DNA from: Sulfuricurvum sp.
Lineage (GTDB): Bacteria; Campylobacterota; Campylobacteria; Campylobacterales; Sulfurimonadaceae
DNA: 64,000 nt
Assembly: GCA_030694265.1 (NCBI GenBank)
Contig: JAUXYP010000013.1
Span: forward strand, 62,001-126,000
Reading direction: 5' to 3'
Made by a program: the position numbers and the translations under genes. Under the pieces are notes generated by a model. The model did not search any database and had not been told where the DNA came from. It was given only the letters and a program-made list of their open reading frames with translations. Positions 31,230-53,033 of this stretch are shown here, piece after piece. The stretch's first letter is position 1. Every line of letters begins with the position of its first letter.

Positions 31230-31368
31230 AATCCTAATTTCATTCATTTAAACCTCTTATAACACAAAAAGTTATTTTTTATAGAAAAGTAAGTAAATAA
31301 TAAGTTTTTCTTCAGACAGTTACCGCTATGCTGTCCCATTATTAAGGTTTTAATTGAAGGGGTAAACA
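31230..31368 (+). promoter_or_regulatory. Leader region of the chemosensory operon
   Basis: These 139 AT-rich bases must hold the main promoter of the operon. I see no convincing sigma-54 or sigma-28 box and only weak -10 candidates. GACAG (31315-31319) and CTGTC (31331-31335) form an inverted repeat that could be an operator. GAAGGGG is the ribosome site of the first gene. Confidence 0.35.
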
Positions 31369-31797
31369 ATGGCAAGAACGGATGATGCACCCAATACAGA
31401 AGGGCTTACCTTTTTAGATGACGGTGAAATGCTTTATGATGATTTATATTTATTGTCCGAAACGGATGAAAAAGGGATTATTACTTATGTGAGTGATTCC
31501 TTCGCAAAAGTTGCTGGATGGAAAGCAGAAGACCTTTTGGGTCAGCCGCATAACTGCGTTCGTCACCCTGACATGCCACGCGCTGCATTCCGATCACTAT
31601 GGGACGATGTTCAGGCAAAAGGTTTTTGGACGGGATTTGTTAAAAATGCTCGTAGAGGCGGGGGACATTACTGGGTTTATGCCACTGTTTTGCGCTCAAC
31701 TGACAAAAATGGAAATGTGAAATATGTATCCATTCGTATCAAACCATCACGTGAAGATATCAAAAAAGCAGAAGCGCTCTACGCGACACTGGACTAA
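31369..31797 (+). CDS. Aer/CetB-type PAS domain protein (probable FAD redox sensor)
   Basis: This 142-residue protein is a single PAS domain closely resembling the Aer N-terminus: GQPHNCVRHPDMPRAAF, then KGFWTGFVKN and GGHYWVYATV. The Aer residues needed for FAD (Arg-His-x-Asp and a downstream Trp) are present as R65, H66, D68 and W87. It has no membrane segment and no signalling domain. The chemoreceptor starts 9 bases later, so sensor and signaller are separate proteins, as in the C. jejuni CetB/CetA pair. Likely input: cellular redox or electron transport state. Confidence 0.88.
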   Translation: MARTDDAPNTEGLTFLDDGEMLYDDLYLLSETDEKGIITYVSDSFAKVAGWKAEDLLGQPHNCVRHPDMPRAAFRSLWDDVQAKGFWTGFVKNARRGGGHYWVYATVLRSTDKNGNVKYVSIRIKPSREDIKKAEALYATLD

Positions 31798-31806
31798 GGG
31801 GAAATT

Positions 31807-33690
31807 ATGGCACTAGTAAGACGAACAGAGCATGCGCCAGCAGCAGTAGGAAGCGTTAGCCCAGATAAAAGACGTCAGCGTACGCTGGCAAAACAGCAGC
31901 AAATATCAGAGAGTATTGCCGGTGTGGCGACAACTATTTTGGGTAATGCGCAAGAGAGTGTCAGTGCGATAGAGGAGCTCAAAAGCTCGATGGAACAAAT
32001 CGCGACAGCGGCAGAAGAAAATAGCGGTGCAAGTGAGCAAGCGCTTAAAAACGTACGTGCTATCAACGCCAATATCGGGCGTATGACGACCAGCATTGAT
32101 ACGGTTATCTCCTCAACACTGGTTACGGGTGATAATATTATGGGCGCGGTTGGAACGATCAATACTTCGGTTGCGCGTATGTCACAAGCGGTAAATGTCG
32201 CTAAAACCTCTTCTACCAAATCCGAAGAGCTCAAAATTTCTTCTGAAAACATCGGTGAAGCGGTAGGCTTTATTGCTAAAATTGCTGATCAAACCAATCT
32301 TTTAGCGCTTAATGCCGCCATCGAAGCCAGTCGTGCAAAAGAACATGGCAAAGGGTTCGCCGTCGTTGCGGATGAGACCCGTGCACTTGCAGGTGAGTCT
32401 GAAAAAAATGCCGATTTCATTTCTAACTTGGTCAATAAAATCCAAGAAAGTATAGATAACATTATCAAAAGTATTACAAGCACGACGGGTATTATTGAGC
32501 AAACAGGCGGGCGCGGATCGGCGTTGAGCTTTAAAATGGAAGAGCTCACAAAAATCGCGGTTTACTCTGTAGAAGCAGCACGTAATATGAGCAGTTATAC
32601 TCAAAGCCTCGGGCACTCCGTTGTGCAAATCAATGATGGGTCAAAAGAGATTGCAGATGCTTCAAGCGAAATTGCAAAATCAGTTGAACGAACCCTTAAC
32701 AGTATTGAAATGCAGTCCAATTCATTGGTTCAAACCGAAGAAGATATAAAAGAACTTAATAACCTCTCTGAAGAGCTTAAGTTCTCAACGGACACGATGA
32801 AGTCAGCAGAAGAGATTGCAGCATCTGCCGACGCGATAAGTTCCAGTATGGACGATATCCAAAACTCACTCAAAGAAGTGACCAACGGATTGAATCAAAT
32901 CGAAGCCTCTTCTCAAGCAACCAACCAAAGCGCGATTCTGAACAAAGAGCTGTTTGAAAGTGGACTTTCTGCATCCAAAGACATCAGTAAACTCATCGAA
33001 ATTGCACGTCGTAACTTCGATTTGCTTAAGACGTCGTTTGCGGATGTCAAAGGGCAGATGAATGGAATCAGTAATGATTTTGCCAATTCAATGGCCGAGG
33101 GGAGCAGTGCAAGCAGTGAGCTTGATGTTATCGTCAAAGAGACGCGTAACGTTGACAAAACGGTTGGCAGTATCTCTAACAGTATTATTCAACTTAATAT
33201 GTTGGCGATCAGCGGCTCCATTGAAGCCGCTCGTGCAGGTGATTTTGGAAAAGGATTTGCCGTAGTTAGTGCGGATATCCGTAACTTGGCCAAAGATTCT
33301 GAGTCCAACACTGAGAAGATCAATGATACGATCGAATCAATGAATGCAGAGATTGATACCGTTCGTACGGATTGGCTTAAACTGTTGATTAATCAAGAAG
33401 GCGAAAAAGAGCAAATCGGAACCTTGATCCATGAGATTGATAAAATCACAACCATGCTGATTGACTTACTTGATCGCTTTACGGGTCTTAAAACGATTAA
33501 TGACCAAAATATCGAAGGGCTTAACCAAGGGCTTATTGGTATCAGTGAGATTCAAAAAGCGGTTGAGCTTTCAGCCCGTAATGCACAGGAATCTCGCAAA
33601 GCAAGTGAACTGATTATTGAAACGGTCAGCCATATTGGCGAAGGCGTTGAAGAACTAGCTGTCATGGCAGATGAACTTCAACAGGGGTAA
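31807..33690 (+). CDS. Soluble methyl-accepting chemotaxis protein with two signalling tips
   Basis: The 627-residue protein has no hydrophobic segment, so it is cytoplasmic. It is nearly all predicted coiled coil. A classic receptor hairpin tip lies at about 155-197 ([19 protein letters not shown], then [15 protein letters not shown]) and a second at about 457-499 ([17 protein letters not shown], then [15 protein letters not shown]). Each could bind CheA and CheW. No separate ligand-binding domain is visible; the PAS protein upstream is the probable input. Its C-terminus lacks an obvious CheR-tethering pentapeptide. Confidence 0.92.
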
Positions 33691-33694
33691 CTCG

Positions 33695-35071
33695 ATGCTT
33701 ATCGAAGAAATTTTGATTATTCGCCATAATGAGGTTTCGTTTGGCATTTCTACTGCGTTGATCGGTCAAATTCTTCGTGTTCCGGATATTACCAGTTTGG
33801 CATTGAGTCCGTATGAAGTACGCGGCTTATGTGCGGTAGGCGGCGGGATTGTTACGTTATTGGATTTTAACCTTTTATTAGGACTAAAGCCTTGCAGCGG
33901 ATCAGATCAGGGAAACCGGGTTATCACGCTGAACGATGAGATGAGTGCATTGGCGCTGCTCGTGGATGAAGTAACGGTTTCTCTCACGATTGATCAAGGA
34001 AAAATCGAGTATTTAGATGTTATGGATGAGGCGATTATCGCGATTGTTCATCATGAAGATACGCTGATTCAGGTTGTCAGTCTAGAGTATGTGATTGCAG
34101 CGATTCGCTCTGTAAAGGTACCCGCTCAAGCGGTGTCAGAAAAAAGCAGATATGACACCGAAGCATCTACGCAAGCGGAAGATAAAAGTCGTTATCTTGT
34201 TTTTAAAATGGGCTTAGAAGAATATGCTCTCCCGATTGATGACCTGAGAGAGATTTTGAATGCGGACGTTACCATTACGGCGATGGCGGGTTCAAATGAT
34301 GAGATTATCGGCATGATGTCTTTGCGCGAAGAACTCGTTGTTATCGCTGATTTACGCCGTTTTTACGGTTTTGAACCCAAATCAGGGGAAAAAAATCGTA
34401 TTATGATTGTTCAGATGCACAACAAAACATTGGGATTGATGATTGATGAGATTGTGGATATTCATGAATTTTCCAAAAATGATTTGGATTCACTGGGCGG
34501 AAGTAATGATGATAAACGTATTGCCGGCGTGATACACAATGGAGATAAACTTATCTCTCTGATTTCAAACAACGCGATTGAATCTTTGTTAGAGCGAAAC
34601 AATGATATTGTCGTTTCGAATGATGTTACTGCAGTGAGTGAAAATGTGGTGCAGATGGTCGAAGTAGTGATTTTTAAACTCGGGAATGAAGAGTATGCGT
34701 TTAGCATCGAAGAGGTTGCGGAGATCATTGATATGACCCCTGTCACTCCTGTGGCGAATGCCGCTGAAATGGTAGATGGAATCATTAACATACGAGGGCA
34801 GATTGTCACGATCGGTTCTTTGCACAAACGCTTGGGAATAAATATTCCTACGCATGGGGATCAGAAGATTATTATTTGTCATGCGCCAAAGGGACGGATC
34901 GGATTTTTTGTGAATACCGTGAGCGATGTTATTTCGATTAATCCGGCACAGATGAGAGAAGAAGAGAGTGCAGATGGGCTTTTCTCAAATATTATTTATT
35001 TAGATGAAGGTAAACGGTTGGTTTTACTGTTTAAACGCAATATCTCACAACTGCTGGAAGGCGTTGCATGA
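33695..35071 (+). CDS. Adaptor with three CheW domains
   Basis: CheW domains bridge receptors and CheA. This 458-residue protein has three in a row, at about 1-145, 165-300 and 320-455, each with the VxG/IxxIRG-type turn (GLCAVGGGIVTLLDF, GMMSLREELVVIADLR, GIINIRGQIVTIGSL). The start is ATG 33695 with AGGGG just upstream; an ATG at 33671 lies inside the receptor gene. A multivalent adaptor suits a receptor with two tips. The gene overlaps cheB by 4 bases. Confidence 0.93.
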   Translation: MLIEEILIIRHNEVSFGISTALIGQILRVPDITSLALSPYEVRGLCAVGGGIVTLLDFNLLLGLKPCSGSDQGNRVITLNDEMSALALLVDEVTVSLTIDQGKIEYLDVMDEAIIAIVHHEDTLIQVVSLEYVIAAIRSVKVPAQAVSEKSRYDTEASTQAEDKSRYLVFKMGLEEYALPIDDLREILNADVTITAMAGSNDEIIGMMSLREELVVIADLRRFYGFEPKSGEKNRIMIVQMHNKTLGLMIDEIVDIHEFSKNDLDSLGGSNDDKRIAGVIHNGDKLISLISNNAIESLLERNNDIVVSNDVTAVSENVVQMVEVVIFKLGNEEYAFSIEEVAEIIDMTPVTPVANAAEMVDGIINIRGQIVTIGSLHKRLGINIPTHGDQKIIICHAPKGRIGFFVNTVSDVISINPAQMREEESADGLFSNIIYLDEGKRLVLLFKRNISQLLEGVA

Positions 35072-36126
35072 AAAGAATGCTTATAGCAGATGATTCGGCA
35101 TTGGTTAGAAAGCAAATAACGGAGATTGTAGCCGAGCTTGGATTTGAGATTGATACGGCGCGTAATGGTGCCGAAGCGGTTGAAAAAGCAACTGCGAGTC
35201 AATACGATGTTATTACGATGGACATTAATATGCCGATTATGGATGGCCTTACCGCCGTACGTAAGATTATGGAGATACGTCCAACACCGATTCTGATGAT
35301 TAGTTCTTTGACGACTGAGAGCGCTAAAATTACAATGGAAGCACTCGATGCAGGTGCTGTTGATTATATCTCAAAACCCGGAACAATGAATGTGGGGCGC
35401 AGTGAAAATTCAGAGGATATTGTCCAAAAAGTAAAGTCTCTCAGCCGTATTCCGCCGCGACGTTTGAAAACGATTACACGCCGTAGTGTTGTGCGTGAGC
35501 GTCCGCAAAGCGTTCGGGAAGCAGCCCGTATAGAAAATAAATCGACGGCTGATGTCACCAAAATAGTATTGATCGGTGCATCGACGGGTGGACCTGGGCT
35601 TATCGAACAGATTTGCACGGCATTGCCGGCTACATTCGGCTATGCCGTCTGCATTGTTCAGCACATGCCTGAACAGTTCACTGCAGCATTCGCGACTCGA
35701 TTAGACAAAAACAGTACCTTACCGGTTATAGAAGCTAAAGATCACATGGAACTTTATCCTGGTAATATTTATCTCGCACGTGGCGGGGTTCACATGCACT
35801 TTGGTAAAAAGGTGACAGGAAGAATTGTCATCCGTGAGGAGAAAAATAAAGGAAGCCGTTTTTTTCAACCCAGTGTTGATGAGATGTTTATGAGTGCGCT
35901 CAAAGTATTTTCAGGCGATCAGATTATAGGGGTTTTATTAACCGGGATAGGAGATGACGGTGCTGCCGGTATGGTTGCCATCAAGCAAGCAGGGGGATTC
36001 ACCATTGGTGAGAGTGAAGAGACGGCAACGGTTTATGGAATGCCAAAAGAAGCATACGATCGTGGGGGAGTGTCTCAACAGCTCCCTTTTCCTAAGATTG
36101 TAAGAGCGCTTCAAACATTACGCTAA
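35068..36126 (+). CDS. cheB: CheB receptor methylesterase/glutamine deamidase response regulator
   Basis: CheB removes receptor methyl groups when phosphorylated by CheA. Receiver domain: D52 in TMDINMPIMDG. Methylesterase domain: catalytic S172 in GASTGGPG, histidine in VQHMPEQF and aspartate in GIGDDGAAGM. Length, 352, is full. Many H. pylori and C. jejuni strains lack CheB or its receiver, so a complete copy shows a full adaptation system. Confidence 0.96.
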   Translation: MKRMLIADDSALVRKQITEIVAELGFEIDTARNGAEAVEKATASQYDVITMDINMPIMDGLTAVRKIMEIRPTPILMISSLTTESAKITMEALDAGAVDYISKPGTMNVGRSENSEDIVQKVKSLSRIPPRRLKTITRRSVVRERPQSVREAARIENKSTADVTKIVLIGASTGGPGLIEQICTALPATFGYAVCIVQHMPEQFTAAFATRLDKNSTLPVIEAKDHMELYPGNIYLARGGVHMHFGKKVTGRIVIREEKNKGSRFFQPSVDEMFMSALKVFSGDQIIGVLLTGIGDDGAAGMVAIKQAGGFTIGESEETATVYGMPKEAYDRGGVSQQLPFPKIVRALQTLR

Positions 36127-36136
36127 GGATTTAGGC

Positions 36137-36763
36137 ATGGCACTGGTAAAAACACACACACAGCAGGTTGTCGAAGAACTTCCACAATTTTCAACACTTG
36201 AAGAAGCCGTAGACTATTATCATGCTAATGATGGAAAATTTGATGAGCAAGGCTATGCAATAGAGCAAATCGAAATGTTCGAGGGCGGCGGAGAAGAATT
36301 AGTTAAACTTTTGATAGATAACCCGTACGTGCATAAAGATATGGCAAGTAAAATCGCTTCCACTCTTGCTAAAATGGATGGAAGCCGTGCCCCCATCGAG
36401 TCGATTATGGGTTTGCTCAAAGTACGTAATGCGTATATTCGAAATCTTGGGATCACAACGCTTCAAAATTATGGTGATGCGATCAAATATTACATTGTGA
36501 AATTTCTTATTGGGGATGATCGTGATTTACGTATTTTTGCGATTAATGTTTTAGGCGATGTTAATTTTTCTCAATCACGTGATATGCTCATCGAACTTCT
36601 CGAAAAAGAGACCGATATCAATGTTGCAATGACGGCTGTGGATTATATGGCTGAGATTGGCGAAGTAGAGGATATTCCATTGCTCGAAACGGTCAAAAGC
36701 AGATTTCAGGATGCGTACGTTGATTTTGCGATTGATAACGCCATTCGCAGTATTCGGGGGTAG
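36137..36763 (+). CDS. HEAT-like repeat protein between cheB and cheR
   Basis: This 208-residue protein has helical repeats with the HEAT/PBS-lyase pattern (AYIRNLGITTLQNYG, LRIFAINVLGDVNF, NVAMTAVDYMAEIGEVEDI). No catalytic motif is visible. The N-terminal 60 residues are acidic. HEAT proteins in other chemosensory clusters act as scaffolds or methylation helpers; that is an analogy. It is 10 bases after cheB and 3 before cheR, so a role in adaptation or array assembly is likely. Confidence 0.72.
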   Translation: MALVKTHTQQVVEELPQFSTLEEAVDYYHANDGKFDEQGYAIEQIEMFEGGGEELVKLLIDNPYVHKDMASKIASTLAKMDGSRAPIESIMGLLKVRNAYIRNLGITTLQNYGDAIKYYIVKFLIGDDRDLRIFAINVLGDVNFSQSRDMLIELLEKETDINVAMTAVDYMAEIGEVEDIPLLETVKSRFQDAYVDFAIDNAIRSIRG

Positions 36764-36766
36764 GTA

Positions 36767-37597
36767 GTGGAGGCTCTTTTGTCCGAAGAAAATTTCTATA
36801 AGATGACCGACTACATTTATCGTAAAACGGGGATTTATTTGGAATTGGACAAGCATTTTGATAAGCTTTCCAAGTACATAGAAGCACGCTGTAAAGTGAT
36901 TGGTGCGGATTCCTTCCGGAAGTATTTTTACACTTTACGTTTTGATGATAAAGACGGTGCAGAGTTTCAAGCGCTTGTAAATGGGATGACCGTCAATGAA
37001 ACCTATTTTTACCGTGAGAAAGAGCAGTTTGAGGTGTTGGTTGACCGAATCTTGCCAGAACTGCATCAGATAAAGCCAAAAGGGCAGCCTTTACGGATTT
37101 TATCCGCTCCAAGCTCTACGGGAGAAGAACCGTATTCGATGATATTGCATATTCTCGAAGAAGCGCGTATTGTTGATGAACGTGATATTGAAGTTGTCGG
37201 TATTGACATTGACAGTACGGTGATTGAAAAAGCAAAATTGGGTAAATACTCAGATCGTGCAGTTCATGCGATACCGCCTGGTGCGTTGGCGAAGTATTTT
37301 AAAAAACGTCCATTGGGTTACGATTTAATCGATGATCTGATCGGAACTGTAGACTTTAAATTGGCCAATATTTTTGATAGGGGAGATATGCGTAAACTGG
37401 GAAAATTCGATGTTATTTTTTCACGCAATATGCTGATCTATTTTGATGATGCCAGCCGAAAAGAAGTTGCAATGACCTTTTACGATATGCTTAATCCCGG
37501 TGGTTATGTCTTGTTAGGTCATGCTGAATATATGAGCCGTATCACTTCCGTATTTAAGGCCAAAAAAATCGATTCCACGTTAATTTATCAAAAATAA
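36767..37597 (+). CDS. cheR: CheR receptor methyltransferase
   Basis: CheR methylates receptor glutamates with SAM. The 276-residue protein has the N-terminal helical domain (VNETYFYREKEQFEVL) and the SAM domain with LSAPSSTGEEPYSM, VGIDIDSTVIEKA and FSRNMLIYFD. The start is GTG 36767 following GGGGGTAGGTA. It pairs with cheB for methylation-based adaptation. Confidence 0.95.
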   Translation: MEALLSEENFYKMTDYIYRKTGIYLELDKHFDKLSKYIEARCKVIGADSFRKYFYTLRFDDKDGAEFQALVNGMTVNETYFYREKEQFEVLVDRILPELHQIKPKGQPLRILSAPSSTGEEPYSMILHILEEARIVDERDIEVVGIDIDSTVIEKAKLGKYSDRAVHAIPPGALAKYFKKRPLGYDLIDDLIGTVDFKLANIFDRGDMRKLGKFDVIFSRNMLIYFDDASRKEVAMTFYDMLNPGGYVLLGHAEYMSRITSVFKAKKIDSTLIYQK

Positions 37598-37618
37598 GAA
37601 CATTAAAAGGAGAACAAT

Positions 37619-37990
37619 ATGCCATTAGTAATATTTGTAGACGACAGCGAGACCGCTTTAGCATCCACTCGGATGGTTACGGACTCAATGCCGATTACGG
37701 TCAAGCAATATTTGTCCGCAGTTGACGCACTCAATGAGATCAAGGGGGGAATGGTCCCGGATTTGATCATTACGGATATGAATATGCCCGTCATGAATGG
37801 TTTTGAGTTTTTACAGGGGCTTCGGGCGGTGCCAAGTACGGCACGGACTCCTGTGTTGATGCTGACAACGGAAACGCGCGATGAGCTTAAAGTGCAGGGA
37901 AAAGCGCTTGGACTGACGGGTTGGGTGGTGAAGCCCTTTAATCCGGCGCAGCTCAAGCAGGCAATTTCTAGAGTATTGCGTCTAGCATAA
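37619..37990 (+). CDS. Single-domain response regulator (CheY-like)
   Basis: This 123-residue receiver domain has D53 in ITDMNMPVMNG, the acidic pair at VDDS and lysine in VVKPFNP. No output domain follows. It lies directly before the CheZ-like gene and is the likely phosphate sink or output regulator of this cluster. Confidence 0.92.
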   Translation: MPLVIFVDDSETALASTRMVTDSMPITVKQYLSAVDALNEIKGGMVPDLIITDMNMPVMNGFEFLQGLRAVPSTARTPVLMLTTETRDELKVQGKALGLTGWVVKPFNPAQLKQAISRVLRLA

Positions 37991-37999
37991 GTTAAAAAG

Positions 38000-38392
38000 A
38001 TGCAATTTCTACATACCCTCAACGGACTACTAGAACATGTTAAAACAGTAGAGCGCGAGACCATTGATTTAACAAAAGAAGCGCAGTTGCGATTTGTTCG
38101 GTTCCTTGATAAAAATGCTTTAAGCGTAGACGACGAAACGCTCGAAGCGATGCAGTATCAAGATATTATTGCACAGCAGTTAAGTGCAACCATAGAGGCC
38201 ATTGAAAGCGCACAGGAGCATATGCAGTATTTTTTGCATGCGTTTAGCGAAGATGATGCGATTGCAGCTCAAAGCATTGAAAAAATGCACGGAAAATTGA
38301 CGAGTGCGCTTGAAAAAGCAAAAGAAAAACACAGTGCATTTAGCGGAAAAGTGAATCGTGAAGACGATGATGACGGAATAGAGTTTTTTTAG
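38000..38392 (+). CDS. Short CheZ-like phosphatase candidate
   Basis: This 130-residue, mostly helical protein contains MQYQDIIAQQL. Its Asp-x3-Gln spacing matches the CheZ active helix (D143 and Q147 in E. coli). The C-terminus DDDDGIEFF is acidic then aromatic, like the CheY-docking tail of CheZ. It lies between two CheY genes. Sequence outside these spots is not clearly CheZ, so the assignment is an inference from motif, tail and neighbours. Confidence 0.66.
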   Translation: MQFLHTLNGLLEHVKTVERETIDLTKEAQLRFVRFLDKNALSVDDETLEAMQYQDIIAQQLSATIEAIESAQEHMQYFLHAFSEDDAIAAQSIEKMHGKLTSALEKAKEKHSAFSGKVNREDDDDGIEFF

Positions 38393-38401
38393 GAGCATAA
38401 G

Positions 38402-38767
38402 ATGGCAACAGTAATGGTAGTAGACGATTCAAAAACAGTGCGGAGTTATCACGGCTCTATTCTCAAAGATTTGGGTGTGGAAGTACTTGAAGCAGAAAAT
38501 GGGATGGAAGCGCTTGAAAAATCGTTGGATAATAACGTGGATTTATATCTTGTGGATGTGAACATGCCGGTTATGGACGGTTACTCGTTTGTGAGTGAAT
38601 TACGTAAACAGCCTGCGCGCCGTTTTACCCCTGTGATTATGATCACAACGCAAATGGAAGCAACCGATAAGCTTGAAGCATTCAAAGTAGGTGCCAATCT
38701 TTTCGAAACCAAACCTATCAAGCCGGATGCTCTTAAAGGGTATCTGCAGCTCTTGTTAAAAGTTTAA
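38402..38767 (+). CDS. CheY-like response regulator
   Basis: This 121-residue receiver has D52 in LVDVNMPVMDG, VVDDSK at the N-terminus and lysine in FETKPIKP. It is 14 bases before cheA and is a probable direct target of it. Whether it binds the flagellar motor cannot be read from the sequence. Confidence 0.93.
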   Translation: MATVMVVDDSKTVRSYHGSILKDLGVEVLEAENGMEALEKSLDNNVDLYLVDVNMPVMDGYSFVSELRKQPARRFTPVIMITTQMEATDKLEAFKVGANLFETKPIKPDALKGYLQLLLKV

Positions 38768-38781
38768 CTCAAGGACAACTT

Positions 38782-41532: not shown

Positions 41533-41546
41533 GTAAAGGAATTAAG

Positions 41547-42250: not shown

Positions 42251-42266
42251 ATGTTAGGGAGCAATT

Positions 42267-42695: not shown

Positions 42696-43435
42696 AAACA
42701 ATCGTCGTTTCGAATCGTAAAGGCGGATCGGCCAAGACGACTACTGCTGTGAATCTCGCCTGCGAATTGGCAAAAATCGGATCGGTGCTCTTGATCGATT
42801 TTGATACCCAAGGACACGCTTCGCTTGGAGTGGGTTGCGAAGCTTCTGAGGATAATGGAGCGCATTCGATTTTTGTAGGTAAAACGCTCAGCGAGACGTT
42901 TGTTCACACGGTACACGATCAGCTTACCCTTTCTCCTGCGCAAGAGTTTTTTGATGTCTATGAGTTTGGAGATTTGCGCGGAGTACTCAAAAATCGTTTT
43001 CGCCGCGAGATGATCCATGATTTTTTTGATTACGTGATTATTGACACTCCTCCAACATTTGATGGGTTACTTAAAAATGCGCTTGAAGTCGCCGATGCTG
43101 TTGTGATCCCATTCGTCCCGCATCATCTAGGAGTGGTTGCGGTGGGACAAATGGTACGTGCTATCTATCAAAATGCTTCACTCAACAGTCAAAAAACGCC
43201 CGAAGTGGGAATTTTACCCGTGATGGTCAATGCCCACATACCTGAACATCGTGAAGCCATAGCCAAGATTAGAACCCAGTTTGGTGAAGAAAAACTTTTT
43301 TCGGGAATAGGGATTGATATCAAGCTGGCCAAACAGTTTGAGGGAGGAAACCCGGTTGTTTTGGATGAGGAACGTTCCCGTGGAGTGAAGGATTATCGGC
43401 ATTTTGTGGAAGAGCTTTTGGCTCGATTATGTTAA
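42692..43435 (+). CDS. ParA-family ATPase, probable array positioning protein
   Basis: This 247-residue protein has the deviant Walker A motif KGGSAKTTT, the Walker B region LLIDFDTQGHAS and IIDTPPTFDGLL. ParA-type ATPases move cargo over the nucleoid or to poles. No parB gene accompanies it; the neighbours are chemosensory. Known relatives in this setting are PpfA of Rhodobacter, which segregates cytoplasmic receptor clusters, and ParC of Vibrio. The same role is inferred here for the soluble receptor array. Confidence 0.85.
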   Translation: MKTIVVSNRKGGSAKTTTAVNLACELAKIGSVLLIDFDTQGHASLGVGCEASEDNGAHSIFVGKTLSETFVHTVHDQLTLSPAQEFFDVYEFGDLRGVLKNRFRREMIHDFFDYVIIDTPPTFDGLLKNALEVADAVVIPFVPHHLGVVAVGQMVRAIYQNASLNSQKTPEVGILPVMVNAHIPEHREAIAKIRTQFGEEKLFSGIGIDIKLAKQFEGGNPVVLDEERSRGVKDYRHFVEELLARLC

Positions 43436-43458
43436 ATGTATAGAAATGGATTTTGATT

Positions 43459-44784: not shown

Positions 44785-44793
44785 GAGTTTATC

Positions 44794-45009
44794 ATGAGGT
44801 ACACATTAGAAGTAAGAAATGCCTGCAGCTGTTTTAAACGTGATGGCGGAGTCGATACGCAAAGTTTTGAGTCTGCGCAAGATGCAAAAGAAGAGGCTGA
44901 GGCACTCCATGCCCGGATGGAAAAAAACTATTGTAAAAAGCATAAGTTTACATTGACGAACATGGCAGGAAACTATACGATCACGATACAGCCCAGAGCT
45001 GCGGGATAG
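44794..45009 (+). CDS. Small cysteine-containing protein of unknown function
   Basis: This 71-residue protein has beta-type ends (RYTLEVRN and NYTITIQP) around a helix (AQDAKEEAEALHARMEKNY). C11, C13, C47 and H50 could form a metal site (CxC plus CxxH). It has its own ATG with AGGAG upstream and lies 9 bases from each neighbour in the operon. I do not recognise the family. Confidence 0.65.
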   Translation: MRYTLEVRNACSCFKRDGGVDTQSFESAQDAKEEAEALHARMEKNYCKKHKFTLTNMAGNYTITIQPRAAG

Positions 45010-45018
45010 GACAAGTTA

Positions 45019-45237
45019 ATGAAATCGTGGATGCTGGGAGTACTAACAGACTCGATTGACGAATATTTTCGACTCAAACCATACTCTGCAGATTTAATCC
45101 CTCTTATCCTCTATCTGCATGATACTATCTTTAAGGAGTTTGAACAGAAGACTCTTTCTCCGATTATGAAGAAAAAACTGGACGAAGTAAAGTATCCGGT
45201 TTCTGAACTGATTCATGTCGATGAGAGAATACGATGA
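45019..45237 (+). CDS. Small helical protein of unknown function
   Basis: This 72-residue protein is predicted all-helical (SIDEYFRLKPYSADLIPLI, FEQKTLSPIMKKKLDEV) with no membrane segment. It overlaps the hybrid kinase gene by 4 bases, so the two are made together. No family is recognised. Confidence 0.62.
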   Translation: MKSWMLGVLTDSIDEYFRLKPYSADLIPLILYLHDTIFKEFEQKTLSPIMKKKLDEVKYPVSELIHVDERIR

Positions 45238-48200
45238 TTCAAAACATTATGGAAAAAATTAAAGAAATTTACAGAGTATTTTCCCATTCTTTGAAATTCA
45301 CGCTGCTGTTTTGGTTTTTGACCTTGAGTATCATCCCCTTAGTCATTATTGCGTGGTATGGATACATACATACAGTACAAAGCGTTGATGAGATGCAGCG
45401 CAATAAACTCTCTAATACGGCTGCTCTAAATGTTGCAACACTCAATGATGATTTTTATGGAGCTACTAAAAATTTACGGATCTGGTCGCAGCTTAGAGCA
45501 CCTGAAAATATGTTATCTGCTTTGGGTGAGCGTTATGCCAAAAGTCCCCAGAGTCTTTATGCTTTTATTCACAGTAAAGAGTATGAAAAATTCATAGAAA
45601 ATCAGCCAAAGACGATTCTGACACTTGCCGAAGAATACAATTATGTGTACGATCTGTTTCTGATCGATTTGGAAGGGAATGTCCTCTATACGGCTAAAAA
45701 AGAGTCTGATTTGGGGACGAATCTTTTTAGTGGTCCTTATTCTAAAACCCGCTTTGCCAAAACGTATCGCAGAAGCCTTTCGGATGGAAAGGCCCACTTT
45801 TCAGACCTTGAATATTATGCCCCCTCAGCAGATGTTTTGACAGGATTTATTACGCAACCTATAGTGAATGATTCGGGTAAAATGGTCGGGATTATGGGAT
45901 TGCAGTTGAATATGGATGTTCTTTTTAGCTCTTTAAACGTTAGAAAAAAAGAGGTAAATCAATATCTTGTTGGAGCAGACGGGTTACTGCGCAGTTCTAT
46001 TGGGAGTGAAGATGAGATTTTGAATCGACGCATCAGTACGAGGATCTTTTGGGACTGGTACAACGAGCATGGGATACAAGGGCGATATTCTGATACGATG
46101 CCAGAAAAGGCCAGTCTTTATATCGGGCCAAACGGTACAAAAGTTCTTGGGGAACACCGATCAATTAATCTGATGGGGGTACGATGGGTACACATTAGTG
46201 AAATGGATGAATCAGAGGTATTAGCTGTCCCAAATCGTCTGTTTACTACGATCGTAATTTTTTCTTTGATGGTTGCCGGCGTGGTCATTCTTGCGGGGAT
46301 TATAATTTCCAGACGCATCGTGAAGCCGATCACACTTCTCTCAGCGGCCAGTGAGCGATACATGAACGGCGACAAGGGGGTTTATGTATCGGTAGAGGCC
46401 ACGAATGAGATCGGAGAACTTGGATCGGTATTTAATGCTTTAATCCAAAAGCAGGAATATGACGAACAAAAGCTTGATTATTTAGCCAAAAAAGCCCAAA
46501 AGACACTCGACGAGCTCAAAGAACAAAAATATGCCCTCGATGCCCACTCTATTGTCGCCATTACGGATGTTAAAGGGACAATTACCTTTGTAAATAGCAA
46601 ATTTGAAGAGATCAGCGGTTATAAAAGCGATGAATTGATTGGGAGGAATCACCGACTACTTAACTCAGGAGTACATGGGACAGAGTTTTGGAAAGAGATG
46701 TACGATAGGGTGAGTCATGGGAATATATGGCATGGTGAAGTGTGTAATTTAGCTAAAGACGGTTCGTATTATTGGATTGATACCACCATCGTCCCTTTTA
46801 TGGATGAAAATAAAAAACCGGTGAGCTATATTGCAATACGTACTGATATCACGGAGAGTAAAGCCATTCAAGATTCTTTGAATGAAGCGATACAACTTCA
46901 AAAAGCGATCTTTGAGAATGCCGGGGTAGCGATCATTACTACGGATACTGAGGGGATAATAACGGCGCTTAATGGTGCGGCAGAAGAGATGATTGGGTAT
47001 AAAGCCCAAGAGTTGGTAGGTAAACAAAGTCCTGCAATTCTTCACAAATTAGAGGAAGTAGTTCAAAAGGCCCGAGAATTTTCCGAAGAGTTAGGGGAGG
47101 TTGTGGAACCTGGATTTAAGGTATTTGTGATTAAAACGGATCGACGTTTACCCAATGCCTATGAATGGACCTATATACGCAAAGACGGAAGTGAAGTGCC
47201 GGTGTACTTGAATGTGACGGCATTGTACGATATTGATGGGCATACGAGCGGTTATATGGGAATTGCAAGTGATGTTTCACTGTTTAAAGAGGCCGAAGAG
47301 CAGATGCTTATAGCCAAAGAGGCTGCAGAGTCTTCTGCACGAATCAAAGCAGAATTTCTGGCAACCATGAGTCATGAGATAAGAACCCCTATGAATGGGG
47401 TGCTGGGTATGTTAGGATTGTTATCACACTCACCATTGGATGAAACCCAACATCACCAAGTACGGGTTGCCTCTAACAGTGCAAACTCACTGCTGGGGCT
47501 GATTAACGATATCCTTGATTTTTCCAAAGTCGAAGCAGGTAAAATGGAGCTTGAGAGGATCGAGTTCAATTTACGGGATGAGCTGGGAGAGTTTATCGAA
47601 GCGATTTCTTTTAAAGCACAGGAAAAAGGGTTAGAACTCATACTTGATACGACGAAGTTGACACGCAATACGGTGATTACCGATCCGGGACGTTTACGCC
47701 AAATTCTCACTAATCTCATAGGTAATGCGGTGAAATTTACCCAGAGAGGTGAAGTCCTTGTGTTTGTGATGTTGGATGAAGTGGATGCACATCAGGGGAG
47801 ATTACGCATTGATGTGCGTGACAGCGGCATTGGAATTGCGGCAGATAAAATCGATTCTCTGTTTGAATCGTTTTCACAAGCAGACAGTTCTACTACCCGT
47901 AAATACGGCGGTACGGGATTGGGGCTGGCGATTGTGAAAAGACTGTGTGAGCTGATGGACGGGAGAATTTGGATAACGAGTGTGGAGAATGAGGGGAGCA
48001 CGTTTCATATTGATATTGGTGTTGGGCTTGGAGAGATATCGGCGTTGAGTATTCCTAGCATGTCGGTCATGATGACTTCACGGGGTTCACGAAATGATGC
48101 ACAACGTTGGCCCCCTGAGACACGTATTTTATTGGTAGAAGATAATTCTACTAATCAGGTCGTAGCGCATGGAATGCTGGAGATGATCGATTTGGAAGCT

Positions 48201-49154
48201 GATATTGCTTCCAATGGTCTAGAAGCGCTTGAAGCGATGCGCTTAGCGCTGGAAACCGCACCGTATACGCTCATCTTGATGGATTGCCAAATGCCGGAGA
48301 TGGATGGGTATGCCGCATCAACAGCAATCCGTGAAGGCAAAGCGGGAGAAGCGTATAAAGAGATTCCTATTGTCGCAATGACGGCCAATGCAATGACGGG
48401 CGACCGTGAAAAATGCCTTATTTCAGGGATGAGTGATTATGTGAGCAAGCCGATTAATCTTGATACGCTTAAAACAACGTTGCTAAAATGGTTACAAGGA
48501 ACTGTTGTTGCAAGTGAGTTGGAGATTAATACGAGGAAGCCCAAAAGCGATATTTCAAACGAAGAGCTCCAAGAGCTTAAACCGTGGGATGAAGCAGATG
48601 CACTAAAGCGATTGGGCGGTAAAAAAGAGCTCTTGTTGAAAATAATGCAGTCATTTATTGATGAGAGTAGCAGAATGACGAGTGCGCTTGACGCAGCGAT
48701 CAGACAGGGTGATTTGCCTAATGTACAGTTGCACGCACATTCCATCAAAGGATCCGCAGCAAACGTATCGGCACAACAGCTTCAGGCGTTAGCAAAAACG
48801 ATGGAATTCGCGGCGAAGAACGGCGATAAAAGCACTCTCAAAGAGGGATTTATAAATCTGGAAAAAGCGATGCAAGAGGTGTGCACCGTATTTGAAAAAG
48901 TACTCAATCAGGAAGTTAAATCTGTGATACGAAAAAAACGGATGGATCCGTTACAAATGGCCATTAAACTGCAAAATCTTAAAAAAGAGATTGAAACGGG
49001 GGCGTTTATCGATACTGAAGCACTTGATATTTTTGGTGATTATGCCGATGAAGAATTTACGGCTCGTATGAGTGTACTTAAAGGACATATAGATCGATTT
49101 GATACGCCTGAAGCACTTGGGCTTCTGAAAACTGTTATGGCAGGATTGGAGTAG
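45234..49154 (+). CDS. Large hybrid sensor histidine kinase (Cache-type sensor, HAMP, two PAS, kinase, receiver, Hpt)
   Basis: The 1306-residue protein has a helix near 22-45, a large periplasmic domain of the double-Cache type to about 340, a helix near 345-366 and a HAMP linker. Two PAS domains follow (VAITDVKGTITFVNSKFEEISGY and AIITTDTEGIITALNGAAEEMIGY). The kinase has H714 in MSHEIRTPMNG and an intact ATPase domain; the receiver has D1017 and the Hpt domain H1169 in AHSIKGSAAN. A 90-residue helical tail ends it. It can run a full internal phosphorelay. The next gene, a receiver-GGDEF, is its probable target. Confidence 0.93.
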   Translation: MIQNIMEKIKEIYRVFSHSLKFTLLFWFLTLSIIPLVIIAWYGYIHTVQSVDEMQRNKLSNTAALNVATLNDDFYGATKNLRIWSQLRAPENMLSALGERYAKSPQSLYAFIHSKEYEKFIENQPKTILTLAEEYNYVYDLFLIDLEGNVLYTAKKESDLGTNLFSGPYSKTRFAKTYRRSLSDGKAHFSDLEYYAPSADVLTGFITQPIVNDSGKMVGIMGLQLNMDVLFSSLNVRKKEVNQYLVGADGLLRSSIGSEDEILNRRISTRIFWDWYNEHGIQGRYSDTMPEKASLYIGPNGTKVLGEHRSINLMGVRWVHISEMDESEVLAVPNRLFTTIVIFSLMVAGVVILAGIIISRRIVKPITLLSAASERYMNGDKGVYVSVEATNEIGELGSVFNALIQKQEYDEQKLDYLAKKAQKTLDELKEQKYALDAHSIVAITDVKGTITFVNSKFEEISGYKSDELIGRNHRLLNSGVHGTEFWKEMYDRVSHGNIWHGEVCNLAKDGSYYWIDTTIVPFMDENKKPVSYIAIRTDITESKAIQDSLNEAIQLQKAIFENAGVAIITTDTEGIITALNGAAEEMIGYKAQELVGKQSPAILHKLEEVVQKAREFSEELGEVVEPGFKVFVIKTDRRLPNAYEWTYIRKDGSEVPVYLNVTALYDIDGHTSGYMGIASDVSLFKEAEEQMLIAKEAAESSARIKAEFLATMSHEIRTPMNGVLGMLGLLSHSPLDETQHHQVRVASNSANSLLGLINDILDFSKVEAGKMELERIEFNLRDELGEFIEAISFKAQEKGLELILDTTKLTRNTVITDPGRLRQILTNLIGNAVKFTQRGEVLVFVMLDEVDAHQGRLRIDVRDSGIGIAADKIDSLFESFSQADSSTTRKYGGTGLGLAIVKRLCELMDGRIWITSVENEGSTFHIDIGVGLGEISALSIPSMSVMMTSRGSRNDAQRWPPETRILLVEDNSTNQVVAHGMLEMIDLEADIASNGLEALEAMRLALETAPYTLILMDCQMPEMDGYAASTAIREGKAGEAYKEIPIVAMTANAMTGDREKCLISGMSDYVSKPINLDTLKTTLLKWLQGTVVASELEINTRKPKSDISNEELQELKPWDEADALKRLGGKKELLLKIMQSFIDESSRMTSALDAAIRQGDLPNVQLHAHSIKGSAANVSAQQLQALAKTMEFAAKNGDKSTLKEGFINLEKAMQEVCTVFEKVLNQEVKSVIRKKRMDPLQMAIKLQNLKKEIETGAFIDTEALDIFGDYADEEFTARMSVLKGHIDRFDTPEALGLLKTVMAGLE

Positions 49155-49157
49155 AAG

Positions 49158-50051
49158 ATGAGCACTAAAGCAGTTATATTAATCGTGGATGATGTCCCAA
49201 CGAACGTACAAGCATTGGCCCTTTTACTGAAAGAAGAGTATGTTATCAAAGTAGCTACAAGCGGTGTAAGAGCCCTGGAACTGGCAGGCCAGGATCCGAT
49301 GCCTGATTTGATATTATTGGATGTTCAGATGCCGGACATGAACGGATTTGATGTACTCAAACTGCTCAAAGAAAACAGTGATACTGCCCAAATACCGATC
49401 ATCTTCGTCACCGGAAAAGACACGGTTGAAGACGAAGAATATGGGCTGGAATTAGGCGCTGTGGATTATATCGCCAAGCCTATACGTCCCTCAATCGTCA
49501 AAGCGCGAGTCAAAACCCATATCACGCTCAAGCAGCAGCACGATCAGCTCGTAGGGATGGCAACGCACGATCAGTTAACAGGATTGTATAATCGTCATTA
49601 TCTAAGTGATACGCTGAGTAAAAGAGTAGCGCACGCCAAACGCCACGGTGAAGCATTATCGGTGATAATCGTCGATATAGATCATTTCAAAAATGTGAAC
49701 GATACGTTTGGACATTTAACGGGCGATATTATTTTAAAGGCAGTCGCTAACGTTATGCAAGACAGCGCACGAAAAGAGGATGTCGCTGCACGTTTTGGCG
49801 GTGAAGAGTTTATAATGGTTTTGGATAACTGTACGGCAGATGACGCGCTGGTAAAAGCAGAAAATTTGCGAAGTAAAATTCAGCTATTGTATCCTGAAGA
49901 TATTGCGGTGACAGCAAGTTTTGGAGTAGTACAACTGGAGAAAGATATGCAACGGTGTGAGGATCTTCTGAAAAATGCCGATATGGCTCTGTATATGGCC
50001 AAAGAAGAGGGGCGAAACCGTGTTATTTTGTATGAAAAGAAAGCGCTATGA
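49158..50051 (+). CDS. Receiver-GGDEF response regulator (diguanylate cyclase)
   Basis: The 297-residue protein has a receiver (D55 in LLDVQMPDMNG) and a GGDEF domain with GGEEF at 214-218. RKED, five residues before it, is the c-di-GMP inhibitory site. It should make c-di-GMP when phosphorylated. Its position between two hybrid kinases, 3 bases after the first and overlapping the second, makes it the likely output of both. Confidence 0.94.
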   Translation: MSTKAVILIVDDVPTNVQALALLLKEEYVIKVATSGVRALELAGQDPMPDLILLDVQMPDMNGFDVLKLLKENSDTAQIPIIFVTGKDTVEDEEYGLELGAVDYIAKPIRPSIVKARVKTHITLKQQHDQLVGMATHDQLTGLYNRHYLSDTLSKRVAHAKRHGEALSVIIVDIDHFKNVNDTFGHLTGDIILKAVANVMQDSARKEDVAARFGGEEFIMVLDNCTADDALVKAENLRSKIQLLYPEDIAVTASFGVVQLEKDMQRCEDLLKNADMALYMAKEEGRNRVILYEKKAL

Positions 50052-52597
50052 GACATCTGATTAAGCGTAAAGTTTTTCTTTATTTTGCGTTATACCTCGC
50101 GCTAATGGGTGCGGTCTCTTCTTTATTATACTCTCGTTATGAAATCTTGACAGATACGTACATTCAAAGTCATGTCAAAGAGTTTGATGTACGTATAGAG
50201 AGCTATCAGGCAATGCAGCAGCGAATGATGGACAACTATTATGGGATGTTTCTGGATTCTTCCAGTGTTTCGCAAATTATGTATCAAGCCATTCACAGTG
50301 ATGCTGCAGGGCAAATGATCCTTCGCCGTGAGCTGTATAATCAAATGAAAGTGGTATTTGATTCACTGCAGGAGTTTGATACTCGGCTTCTATTTTTTCA
50401 TTTGCCTGGGCAGGTTGCATTTTTACGGGTACATGAACCTGAAAAGTTTGGAGATGATCTCACGGTTACACGTCAAAGTATTGTTTACGCGCAACAGATG
50501 CAAAAGAAGGTAGTTGTTTTTGAAACGGGAAAATATGTAAGCCATTTTCGCAGTGTTTATCCGTTGTTTTATAAAGGACATTTTACAGGTACGGTAGAAA
50601 TAGCATACACTTTCTTAGCGCTAAAAAGACAAGCGATACTGCAAGATCAGGGAGCGTATACCTTTTTGATCAAGCGTAGTATTTTAACAAAAAAATCAAA
50701 AGACACAGAAATAGTCAAACATTTCCAAGATTCCCTTTTTGGTTCAGATTACATTGAAGATCAAGAAAGTGCTCTTTTGAAAGACGCTGAAGGATTTGAG
50801 AAAGGTGAATTGGAAGTTTTACTCACCGAAAATAAAGCAAAAATTGAAAAAGCATTAAAACAAGAAAAACTGCAAGGGATACGGCTCACGCATAGGGGCA
50901 AAGATGCGCTTATGATTTTAAAACCGGTATATCAAATCGGTGGGGAACAAGCTGCTTATATGGTTGAAATCACCTCTAATCACGAGATATTTGCAACACA
51001 GTGGAATCAGTTTATAGTTTTAGTGAGCATGCTGGCTATTCTATTAGCGTTATTGATGTGGTATGTTTACCGTTATAATCGTTCGGTTCTTTTGAGTGAA
51101 CAGTATAAAGAAGCCATTGAAGAGAGTATGATCGTTTCTCGAACAGATACAAAGGGGATAATTACCTATGTTAATCCTCTTTTTGTGAAGATCAGCGGAT
51201 ACACCCAAGAAGAGCTTTTAGGCCAACCACATAGCATAGTACGCCATCCTGACACGCCCGAAACAGTCTTTAAAGCGATGTGGCATACGCTCCAGCGAGG
51301 AAGAAATTGGCATGGAATGCTCCAAAATAGTAAAAAAAATGGAGAGTCCTATTTTGTAAAAAATTTAATATGCCCTATCGTAGATGAAGACGGTAAAATT
51401 TTGGAATATCTTGGATTGCGTGAAGATGTTACCGAAATACAAAACAGCCGTTTAAGGGCGCAGGAGGCAGAACGAATCAAATCTGCCTTTGTCGCTAACA
51501 TGAGTCATGAAATACGAACACCGATTAACGGTGTTGTCGGATTTATCCATTTACTCTCCAAAACTGCTCTAGACACGACTCAGCGTCGTTATGTATCGGT
51601 AGTGGAAAGTTCATTAGAGATGCTGCTGCACATTGTTAATGATGTTTTGGACTTTTCCAAGATAGAAGAGGGGAAAATCGAGATAGAGTGGATTAAAAGT
51701 TATCCAAAAAGAGAACTTACAAGTATTTTTGAGCTGTTTATCCCTCAAGCGGATATTAAAAAAATAGACTATCAGTTGATATTGGATGAAAGAATCGAAA
51801 ATTGTTTGATCCTTGATATTCTTCGTATCAAGCAGGTGTTGAGCAATCTCATCAGCAATGCGCTTAAATTCACCCCTGAAGAGGGGTTGGTACACGTTAA
51901 AATAGACGTGGTACAGGATACGCCAACGTCACAAGAGTTGAAGTTTAGTGTCAGTGATACGGGTATCGGAATTCCAAAAAGCAAGCAAGGAAAAATTTTT
52001 GAAAAGTTCACACAAGCCGATGCCTCCACTACGCGAGAATACGGCGGGACAGGGTTAGGGCTTTCGATTGCCAACGCGATTGTGGAGCTTATGGGCGGAG
52101 TAATCACTATTCAAAGCGAAGAGGGGAAAGGGGCTACTTTCTCTTTTCACATCAATGCTCAAAAGTGTGATGCATCAGAAGATGAAGTCACGTATGATGA
52201 ACAACCTAGTATGAAACCTCTGGATTTACGGGTGTTGGTCGTTGATGATTATGAGATGAATCGAATGCTCATCGGAGAGTTACTTAGTTACCATTATGGG
52301 ATAACTGCTGATTTTGCCAATAATGGTGAAGAAGCGGTAGAAATGGTTCATAAAAATACGTATGATTTGGTATTGATGGATGTGAATATGCCGATTATGG
52401 ATGGCATTCAAGCAACCAAGTTGATTCGTAAAGAGTATCCTGCTCTCCCGATTATTGCACTGACGGCCAATGTCATGGAAGGGGATGCCCAAGAATTTAC
52501 AACGCAGGGGATGAACGATTATCTTGCGAAACCTTTGGATTACGATGAACTGCATCGTGTCTTGACACGTTTCTCAACAAAGAAGGAGTTGGCATGA
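50048..52597 (+). CDS. Hybrid sensor histidine kinase with an Aer-type PAS domain
   Basis: The 849-residue protein has a helix at 8-24, a periplasmic domain of about 300 residues with RHL-type helical start, a helix near 325-342, a PAS domain of the Aer type (LLGQPHSIVRHPDTPETVF), the kinase core (H487 in MSHEIRTPING; DTGIGI, GGTGLGL) and one receiver (D778 in LMDVNMPIMDG). It has no Hpt; the next gene supplies one, completing the relay. The PAS repeats the RHPD residues of the PAS protein that opens the operon. Confidence 0.93.
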   Translation: MRHLIKRKVFLYFALYLALMGAVSSLLYSRYEILTDTYIQSHVKEFDVRIESYQAMQQRMMDNYYGMFLDSSSVSQIMYQAIHSDAAGQMILRRELYNQMKVVFDSLQEFDTRLLFFHLPGQVAFLRVHEPEKFGDDLTVTRQSIVYAQQMQKKVVVFETGKYVSHFRSVYPLFYKGHFTGTVEIAYTFLALKRQAILQDQGAYTFLIKRSILTKKSKDTEIVKHFQDSLFGSDYIEDQESALLKDAEGFEKGELEVLLTENKAKIEKALKQEKLQGIRLTHRGKDALMILKPVYQIGGEQAAYMVEITSNHEIFATQWNQFIVLVSMLAILLALLMWYVYRYNRSVLLSEQYKEAIEESMIVSRTDTKGIITYVNPLFVKISGYTQEELLGQPHSIVRHPDTPETVFKAMWHTLQRGRNWHGMLQNSKKNGESYFVKNLICPIVDEDGKILEYLGLREDVTEIQNSRLRAQEAERIKSAFVANMSHEIRTPINGVVGFIHLLSKTALDTTQRRYVSVVESSLEMLLHIVNDVLDFSKIEEGKIEIEWIKSYPKRELTSIFELFIPQADIKKIDYQLILDERIENCLILDILRIKQVLSNLISNALKFTPEEGLVHVKIDVVQDTPTSQELKFSVSDTGIGIPKSKQGKIFEKFTQADASTTREYGGTGLGLSIANAIVELMGGVITIQSEEGKGATFSFHINAQKCDASEDEVTYDEQPSMKPLDLRVLVVDDYEMNRMLIGELLSYHYGITADFANNGEEAVEMVHKNTYDLVLMDVNMPIMDGIQATKLIRKEYPALPIIALTANVMEGDAQEFTTQGMNDYLAKPLDYDELHRVLTRFSTKKELA

Positions 52598-52971
52598 AAA
52601 CCAAAGAACAGCAGATTGCGGAATTTGAAAAGCTATTTAGCGAGTTAAAAGCAATGCTTCATTTGTCAGATGAGGTTATGATCAGACTTAACAATAAATT
52701 TTTTGAGTCAGTATCGTCAACCCTTATACAATTAAACGAAGCCATAGCAGCAGTTGACTATGAGACTATTGAAATGCTTGCCCACTCAATCAAAGGCAGT
52801 GCAGGATCATTGCGTTATACCGCTATCAGTGAGATTGCTCAAGATTTGGAAAAGAGAGCCCATACAAAAGAAAATTATGCGTATCAAGAGGGATCGGCAT
52901 CACTTGAGGGACAGTTTCATGCGGTAGAAGAGTGTTATAAGCTATGGAAAAATAAAATGGGATTGTTATAG
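52594..52971 (+). CDS. Stand-alone histidine phosphotransfer (Hpt) protein
   Basis: The 125-residue helical protein carries H64 in AHSIKGSAGSLRY, the phospho-accepting histidine of Hpt domains. It overlaps the hybrid kinase gene by 4 bases and lets that kinase's receiver pass phosphate on, probably to the receiver-GGDEF protein. It is the last gene before a terminator. Confidence 0.9.
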   Translation: MKTKEQQIAEFEKLFSELKAMLHLSDEVMIRLNNKFFESVSSTLIQLNEAIAAVDYETIEMLAHSIKGSAGSLRYTAISEIAQDLEKRAHTKENYAYQEGSASLEGQFHAVEECYKLWKNKMGLL

Positions 52972-53033
52972 AGAGCAGGGTTTTTAAAAAAAGAGTTTGC
53001 TTACAATGGAAAGAAGTTGATTGATTTTTCAAG

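Follow-up and report, generated by a model that had tools for sequence, protein, structure and literature searches.

A full class F9 chemosensory operon with a lineage-specific kinase and cyclase add-on in Sulfuricurvum, and a possible output of its array

What is the output of a cytoplasmic chemosensory array, and do the hybrid-kinase and cyclic diguanylate (c-di-GMP) genes at the end of its operon belong to it? These questions are raised by positions 31369-52971 of a window of 64,000 nucleotides from Sulfuricurvum sp. (assembly GCA_030694265.1, contig JAUXYP010000013.1, positions 62,001 to 126,000 of the forward strand), to which all positions below refer; the window lies on contig C12 of a 2.15-Mb draft genome that we label G000, other genomes being numbered likewise. 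The region holds 21 open reading frames (ORFs), all on the plus strand, which the initial annotation took for 21 genes of one unusually complete system. As we will argue, it is a full class F9 operon whose tail is specific to Campylobacterota and to which a lineage-specific kinase/diguanylate cyclase add-on is attached. The class is known; what is new is a pair of proteins, a STAS-like protein and a receiver protein that we call RR443, as a possible output of F9 arrays. That the two form a receiver-gated partner switch is a proposal, which draws on structural models of low confidence.

Composition and order show genes 1-16 to be a full class F9 cytoplasmic chemosensory operon, a class already published (PMC9321776 and PMC7534058); the whole is not a novel all-in-one system. 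F9 is defined by DosM, a receptor with two tandem signalling domains, and by CheW3, an adaptor with three CheW domains, and full F9 clusters are found in 64 of 2781 species (PMC9321776). In the window, DosM (31807-33690) has MCPsignal, in three stretches, as its only Pfam domain, with signalling tips at residues 164 and 464 and, by hydropathy, no transmembrane helix; the tips lie 300 residues apart, near twice 22 heptads, and by this spacing the signalling domain may be of the 44-heptad (44H) type expected of F9. CheW3 (33671-35071) shows three tandem Pfam CheW stretches, and alignment suggests that its true start is probably a later ATG. There follow the methylesterase CheB with its receiver (35068-36126), a HEAT-repeat protein (36137-36763, Pfam HEAT_2) and the methyltransferase CheR (36767-37597). 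The operon also has its own cheY and cheA genes, as in full rather than partial F9 sets. In a tree that carries the tool's long-branch warning, its CheA (38782-41532) and the orthologues group with the CheA of four proteobacterial F9 clusters (support 100/99), separate from E. coli CheA and from the genome's remaining CheAs.

Downstream of cheA, the core continues with a CheW (41547-41981), the STAS-like protein (41981-42250), a further CheW whose copy or place varies among relatives (42267-42695), a ParA-family ATPase (42692-43435; Pfam AAA_31/ParA, Walker motif KGGSAKT) that probably positions the soluble array, RR443 (43459-44784) and, last, a 71-amino-acid protein without a Pfam match (44794-45009), whose gene 14 of 15 same-genus operons carry (G028 lacks it), as does the metagenome-assembled genome Campylobacterales bacterium BB8. 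Over the whole run, Pfam bears out the following parts: PAS, receptor, triple CheW, CheB, HEAT, CheR, two CheYs, CheA and two CheWs, and in addition ParA, a receiver protein, two hybrid kinases, a receiver-GGDEF protein and Hpt.

How far does this arrangement extend beyond the window? A profile of the F9 HEAT protein, searched against 60 genomes (E<=1e-6), finds the core in 20 of them, our own included, 16 being of the same genus. Reading the gene order in all 20 confirmed that it is conserved: the series DosM-CheW3-CheB-HEAT-CheR-CheY-CheZ-like-CheY-CheA holds wherever the contig allows, and a PAS gene stands upstream of DosM in all 17 genomes where that place is visible. In G016, a small opposite-strand ORF is called between the two, and in G030 (locus L039) cheA is split into ORFs of 555 and 369 amino acids by a frameshift or an assembly error. 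Of the 16 same-genus operons, 15 have RR443 after ParA, the exception being G016, which lacks it. Elsewhere RR443 follows ParA with a kinase in between (G054) or lies away from the core, on another contig or some 30 kb distant (G037, G056, G059), while G040, which has no HEAT match, keeps the STAS-like, ParA, kinase, RR443 and 71-amino-acid genes together, the stretch read showing no che genes. In G054, G040, G056, G037 and BB8, RR443 is preceded by a kinase of 512-523 amino acids (receiver-PAS-HisKA-HATPase in G054, the one whose domains were examined); the 15 same-genus operons have no such gene at that place. Over the 60 genomes, with an RR443 cut-off of E<=1e-80 and counts uncorrected for phylogeny, 19 have both RR443 and the F9 HEAT gene, two RR443 only, one HEAT only and 38 neither. 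In a separate scan for relatives, in which the query patterns fell in the receiver domain, BB8 (L076) was the only one of the 80 loci kept that matches the RR443 C-terminal profile. A sample of 249 genomes of the phylum, queried with the window HEAT protein as a single sequence at E<=1e-8, gave a match in our own genome only. The two samples overlap little, and the genomes of this one were spread evenly across the phylum; outside the genus, the cluster is therefore either sparse or missed by a single-sequence search.

The comparison with Proteobacteria started from 141 plasmid records with a CheW3 match, of which 14 regions were read, by rank and avoiding near-duplicates; 11 of these are clusters of Alpha- and Betaproteobacteria that we assigned to F9 from the triple CheW and the gene order. 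All 11 show the order receptor-CheW3-CheB-...-CheR-...-CheA, followed directly by a protein of 78-87 amino acids. A HEAT gene is annotated between cheB and cheR in seven, and the window HEAT profile matches all three proteobacterial HEAT proteins tested; ParA occurs in two. The stretches read of Ruegeria (L171), Marinitoga (L159) and Deferribacter (L169), outside the 11, show no F9 cluster. On the 28-kb plasmid pMO1 of Marinitoga okinawensis, genes for a GGDEF cyclase, two receptors, an HD-type c-di-GMP phosphodiesterase and a multi-CheW protein are consecutive, and on the Deferribacter megaplasmid an annotated STAS-domain gene lies two genes after a CheW gene.

Genes 17-21 are of another kind, namely a lineage-specific phosphorelay and c-di-GMP add-on with one relic gene. 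The relic is a 72-amino-acid ORF (45019-45237) at the place where G010, G022 and G031 carry an intact gene for a substrate-binding protein of about 300 amino acids, in one relative weakly NMT1-like, below the cut-off. Because the ORF aligns to the intact genes as separated collinear pieces, we regard it as a collapsed copy with several internal deletions, and the annotated count of 21 genes is not confirmed. The next gene encodes HK1306 (45234-49154), a kinase of the architecture dCache-HAMP-PAS-PAS-HisKA-HATPase-REC-Hpt (dCache_1 below the cut-off), with one receiver versus two in its G010 orthologue, the gap falling between aligned blocks. It is followed by a receiver-GGDEF diguanylate cyclase (49158-50051) whose GGEEF motif and RKED inhibitory site are intact, by HK849 (50048-52597), which joins a dCache_3-like sensor, an Aer-type PAS, HisKA, HATPase and a receiver, and by an Hpt phosphotransfer protein with the motif AHSIKG (52594-52971). 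Among the 15 same-genus operons with RR443, a HK1306-like gene lies downstream of it in ten (one cut by the contig end), the receiver-GGDEF gene is present in seven, and HK849 with Hpt in five (G031 being cut inside HK849). None of these genes occurs in the operons of G001, G004, G007, G018 and G032, which speaks against one all-in-one system.

Are there, then, two independent systems that share a place and perhaps a transcript, an F9 array (genes 1-16) and a kinase/cyclase locus (17-21) beside a tRNA cluster? We take this to be a serious alternative, of a probability somewhat short of even. Genes 17-21 come and go as modules, a tRNA cluster marks the border, the add-on begins with its own binding-protein gene in G010, G022 and G031, and in G004 a different kinase and GGDEF gene hold that place. 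On the other hand, kinase and GGDEF genes attach recurrently at the same end. In the outgroups, moreover, RR443 has a dedicated kinase beside it, which the genus lacks and for which the new kinases may be a replacement.

The borders of the run bear on the same question. The ORFs are tightly packed, as annotated: no gap exceeds 23 bases, and several neighbours overlap by 4 bases. This packing is not due to chance, because related genomes show the first 15-16 genes in the same order. Scans for internal promoter consensus sites are uninformative (23 sites versus 28.3 expected at 30500-43000, and 35 versus 27.7 at 43000-54000). A promoter-like element, a T-rich stretch followed by G[CT]TA[AT][GT]CT, lies at 31303-31332, upstream of the PAS gene. 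It is aligned in all 13 same-genus genomes (the window and 12 others), is much better conserved than the remaining intergenic DNA there, and finds one match within three mismatches in its own genome versus none for the reversed control; it is a candidate promoter of the operon. The terminator said to follow the last gene was not recovered: a scan of 52971-54000 gave no plus-strand terminator-like site, and five minus-strand tRNA genes (Leu, Arg, Arg, His, Pro; 53062-53576) adjoin the operon end instead, beyond which G028, G013 and G002 show protein genes of like sizes and strands. Directly upstream of the operon (27871-31229), a 297-amino-acid protein with a sub-threshold NMT1 likeness and a GAF-GGDEF-EAL protein form a pair, and G031 shows a similar one.

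Which proteins of the core could carry the output? The 89-amino-acid protein encoded after cheA is, by sequence comparison, apparently a divergent STAS_2-like protein: STAS_2 is weakly matched in nine of its 17 aligned homologues (best E 2e-4). Its profile matches three of four proteobacterial small proteins, missing that of Methylosinus (E 6.5), and hhalign relates the Campylobacterota set to the four with a probability of 96.7%. His47 and Gln52 are the only residues invariant in all 17 sequences, and five further ones agree (22/22). At the loop where STAS proteins carry the phosphorylatable Ser/Thr of DS[ST]G, the window protein reads IHLG, the register having been set by eye. In the abstracts and passages searched, which exclude supplements and the DosM paper (PNAS 2016), neither the STAS-like nor the HEAT protein of F9 clusters is described, and the words HEAT and STAS are absent from the main text of PMC7534058 and PMC9321776.

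RR443 has 441 amino acids if read from the ATG at 43459 and 443 from an upstream TTG. It combines a Pfam receiver with, as modelled, an RsbW-like fold and a bundle like the P1 domain of CheA, and ends in a conserved LDDIFDF tail. Queried in Foldseek, the model of its C-terminal part (from two sequences) returns anti-sigma factors (Usfx, RsbW, SpoIIAB) or LvrC in 17 of the first 18 rows, including all of the first 16, whose E-values of 5e-3 to 0.17 are weak, and for the full-length model the top match is LvrC (TM-score by query length 0.25). VIA-align superimposes the middle domain on anti-sigma chains with Z 9.6-11.5 over 97-109 residues (root-mean-square deviation 2.6-3.2) and on LvrC with Z 8.6; for the last bundle against CheA P1 it gives Z 13.6, near the tool's warning level for helical bundles, and other such matches (G protein-coupled receptors, designed bundles) were disregarded. 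With registers set by eye, the N-box Asn for ATP and Mg is absent in all 15 sequences (column 187 is T, V, A, I, S or L), and so is the phospho-accepting His of P1 (column 341 is R, K, S, Q or D), the nearest His, in column 338, being present in two. A HATPase_c_2 search of the genome gave seven matches, none above the cut-off. Five close relatives share 97-99% identity in DosM and 68-77% in RR443, so that the constraint on the scaffold is much tighter than that on the putative output.

One reading of these results is that the F9 arrays of this group, instead of steering flagella, might drive a receiver-gated, kinase-dead partner switch. In it RR443, with an RsbW-like domain devoid of ATP motifs and a P1-like bundle devoid of His, would exchange the STAS-like partner, whose invariant His would replace the usual Ser/Thr chemistry. 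As it stands, this is a doubtful proposal, and several points weigh against it and against the wider account of the operon favoured below. The RR443 models, from two sequences, have a mean predicted local distance difference test score (pLDDT) of 66-67 (67 for the C-terminal part) and a predicted TM-score of 0.37-0.46; the Foldseek E-values are only 5e-3 to 0.2, at TM-scores by query length of 0.25-0.30. The sequence profile of the middle domain, compared with the PDB, gave chance matches only and no anti-sigma structure; the STAS-like profile likewise gave chance matches only and no STAS structure, the window STAS-like protein itself has no Pfam match, and its profile, as noted, misses one of the four proteobacterial homologues. 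RR443 and the core also occur apart: in G016 the core is present but RR443 is not, G040 and G027 carry RR443 but no HEAT gene, and an RR443 gene is seen in none of the 11 proteobacterial F9 clusters. Finally, co-transcription of the whole run would seem likely from its spacing only.

What would such a switch act on? The genome shows only two Sigma70_r2 matches, in frames of 635 and 232 amino acids (the family does not cover sigma-54), so the smaller, taken as the flagellar sigma factor, would be, speculatively, a natural candidate. RR443-like proteins also occur elsewhere: in our own genome, on contig C9, one lies upstream of another cheA cluster (260093, L071) and one between kinase genes (185011, L074), with the acidic-aromatic tails EMEFF and GFEFF, and in G027 such a gene lies beside an F7-like che cluster. 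Since relatives of RR443 thus stand beside F7-like and other che clusters in the genus, they may be a general chemosensory output.

A different account of the pair is that the STAS-like protein is an analogue of CheS, tuning CheA and the dephosphorylation of CheY, and that RR443 is a phosphate sink or scaffold, with no sigma-factor switch involved. We rate it as a strong competitor, with chances not far below one half. The small gene directly follows cheA in all 11 proteobacterial F9 clusters, none of which shows an RR443 gene; in S. meliloti, CheA is bound by CheS, which consists of STAS only (PMC12654446); and the acidic-aromatic tails of the CheZ-like protein and of RR443 resemble the end of E. 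coli CheZ. Against it stands G040, where the STAS-like protein, ParA, the kinase and RR443 stay together and the stretch read has no che genes. Both this account and the partner switch have precedents, in S. meliloti CheS on the one side and in Shewanella Che1 and stage-1 F7 clusters on the other.

Could the output instead be c-di-GMP, with the array CheA phosphorylating the receiver-GGDEF protein directly, as in Wsp, and the hybrid kinases serving as extra inputs? The genes share a strand and 4-base overlaps, the receiver and GGEEF motif of the cyclase are intact, and nine of the 13 same-genus genomes have a gene of GGDEF/EAL type no more than 1.2 kb upstream of the operon (counted by crude motifs in 12 of them and by Pfam in the window). 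That said, the cyclase gene is missing in eight of 15 operons that keep the core (G019, one of these, is cut by the contig end), in G028 both kinases and Hpt are present and the cyclase is not, it comes with kinases and an Hpt of its own, and GGDEF domains are common, with 45 in the genome. We consider such an integrated pathway unlikely.

The two CheYs of the operon, CheY1 (37619-37990) and CheY2 (38402-38767), lack the residues W58, K91 and K119 (E. coli numbering) that serve as marks of FliM binding (PMC9321776), having M, R, A and V, E, Y in their place. The protein encoded between them (38000-38392) can be called CheZ-like, as annotated, at the level of motifs, with QDIIAQ for the DxxxQ motif and DGIEFF as an acidic-aromatic tail like that which binds phosphorylated CheY, yet no Pfam family matches it. 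The genome has four CheA genes, three of them outside the operon. One stands after a 312-amino-acid CheW-like protein and before a CheW, a cheV-cheA-cheW cluster that is probably of F3 layout; a cheY-A-W-R-(206 amino acids)-B cluster elsewhere appears to be F7. With FlhA also encoded elsewhere, the separation of the system from the flagellar chemotaxis set was well judged in the initial annotation. That the array steers the flagellar motor via CheY1 or CheY2 is accordingly very improbable: FlhA and the CheZ-like gene speak for it, and the missing FliM-binding marks of both CheYs and the F3-like cluster against it.

On the input side, the first gene of the operon encodes a stand-alone PAS protein of Aer/CetB type (31369-31797), 44% identical to the PAS domain of E. 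coli Aer over 110 residues, with the RHPDMP region kept; the PAS domains of HK849 and of the G054 kinase are 42% and 49% identical to it. From this likeness, the protein is probably a redox sensor with flavin adenine dinucleotide and a redox signal would most likely be the input, so that, of the redox control of motility or attachment proposed in the initial annotation, the redox input is plausible, the controlled behaviour being a conjecture. A link between low oxygen and PAS has been discussed for the F9 system of V. cholerae (PMC7534058, PMC9321776).

How, then, might the parts work together? DosM, CheW3, CheW and CheA would assemble into a soluble array of two layers, with ParA positioning it, and the Aer-type PAS protein would dock on this array to report the redox state. 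CheR and CheB would provide adaptation, and the CheZ-like protein would drain phosphorylated CheY. CheA output would pass to CheY1, CheY2 and RR443, not to the flagellar switch; as a receiver-controlled, ATP-less relative of RsbW, RR443 would trade partners with the STAS-like protein, whereby the array would set a slow regulatory state, with the flagellar-type sigma factor as candidate target. Where present, HK1306 and HK849-Hpt would phosphorylate the receiver-GGDEF protein, adding a c-di-GMP output on the same transcript. Taken as a whole, an F9 operon with an add-on that works in this manner is the explanation we favour, and we hold it to be rather probable.

Why does this matter? Deletion of the F9 cheA of V. 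cholerae had no detectable phenotype under standard conditions (PMC7534058). For the question of what F9 arrays control, the operon supplies candidates in RR443, the STAS-like protein and two non-motor CheYs. What is more, as HEAT (7/11) and STAS-like proteins (11/11) accompany F9 clusters in Alpha- and Betaproteobacteria and in Campylobacterota, this question can be tested with purified proteins.

Among known systems, the core resembles class F9 as described from cluster I of V. cholerae, Campylobacterota and others, sharing DosM with its two signalling domains, CheW3, CheA and soluble parts (PMC7534058, PMC9321776). Unlike the class as described there, it is headed by a stand-alone Aer-type PAS protein, has an inserted CheZ-like protein and a second CheY, and is followed by ParA and RR443 and then by the hybrid-kinase/cyclase add-on. 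In the bipartite CetA/CetB energy taxis of Campylobacter, too, a separate Aer-type PAS protein works with a sensor-less receptor, but the partner here is a soluble, double-ended F9 receptor instead of the membrane protein CetA. Shewanella Che1 encodes an anti-sigma regulator and its antagonist (CrsR/CrsA) acting on RpoS (PMC9855816), and stage-1 F7 clusters carry anti-sigma factor antagonists (PMC7184735). The operon, with its candidate pair, is similar in joining such functions to chemosensory genes; Che1, however, is of class F7 with RpoS as its target, and RR443 apparently lacks ATP motifs and shows no phosphatase domain. LvrC of Leptospira (9qih; PMC13269768), crystallised with ADP and Mg, likewise joins a receiver to an RsbW-like Bergerat domain, which in RR443 is modelled; RR443 differs from LvrC in its extra P1-like bundle, its conserved tail and the absence of the N-box Asn. 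CheS of Sinorhizobium and Agrobacterium, a small STAS-only protein of a che operon that binds CheA (PMC12654446), is a possible counterpart of the STAS-like protein. The STAS-like proteins of F9 differ from it in the invariant His at the STAS loop. Finally, the Wsp system is a chemosensory operon that includes a receiver-GGDEF protein and is not known to have DosM or CheW3. Here, by comparison, the cyclase is part of a variable add-on, and the operon illustrates how a c-di-GMP relay can vary as an attachment to a chemosensory operon.

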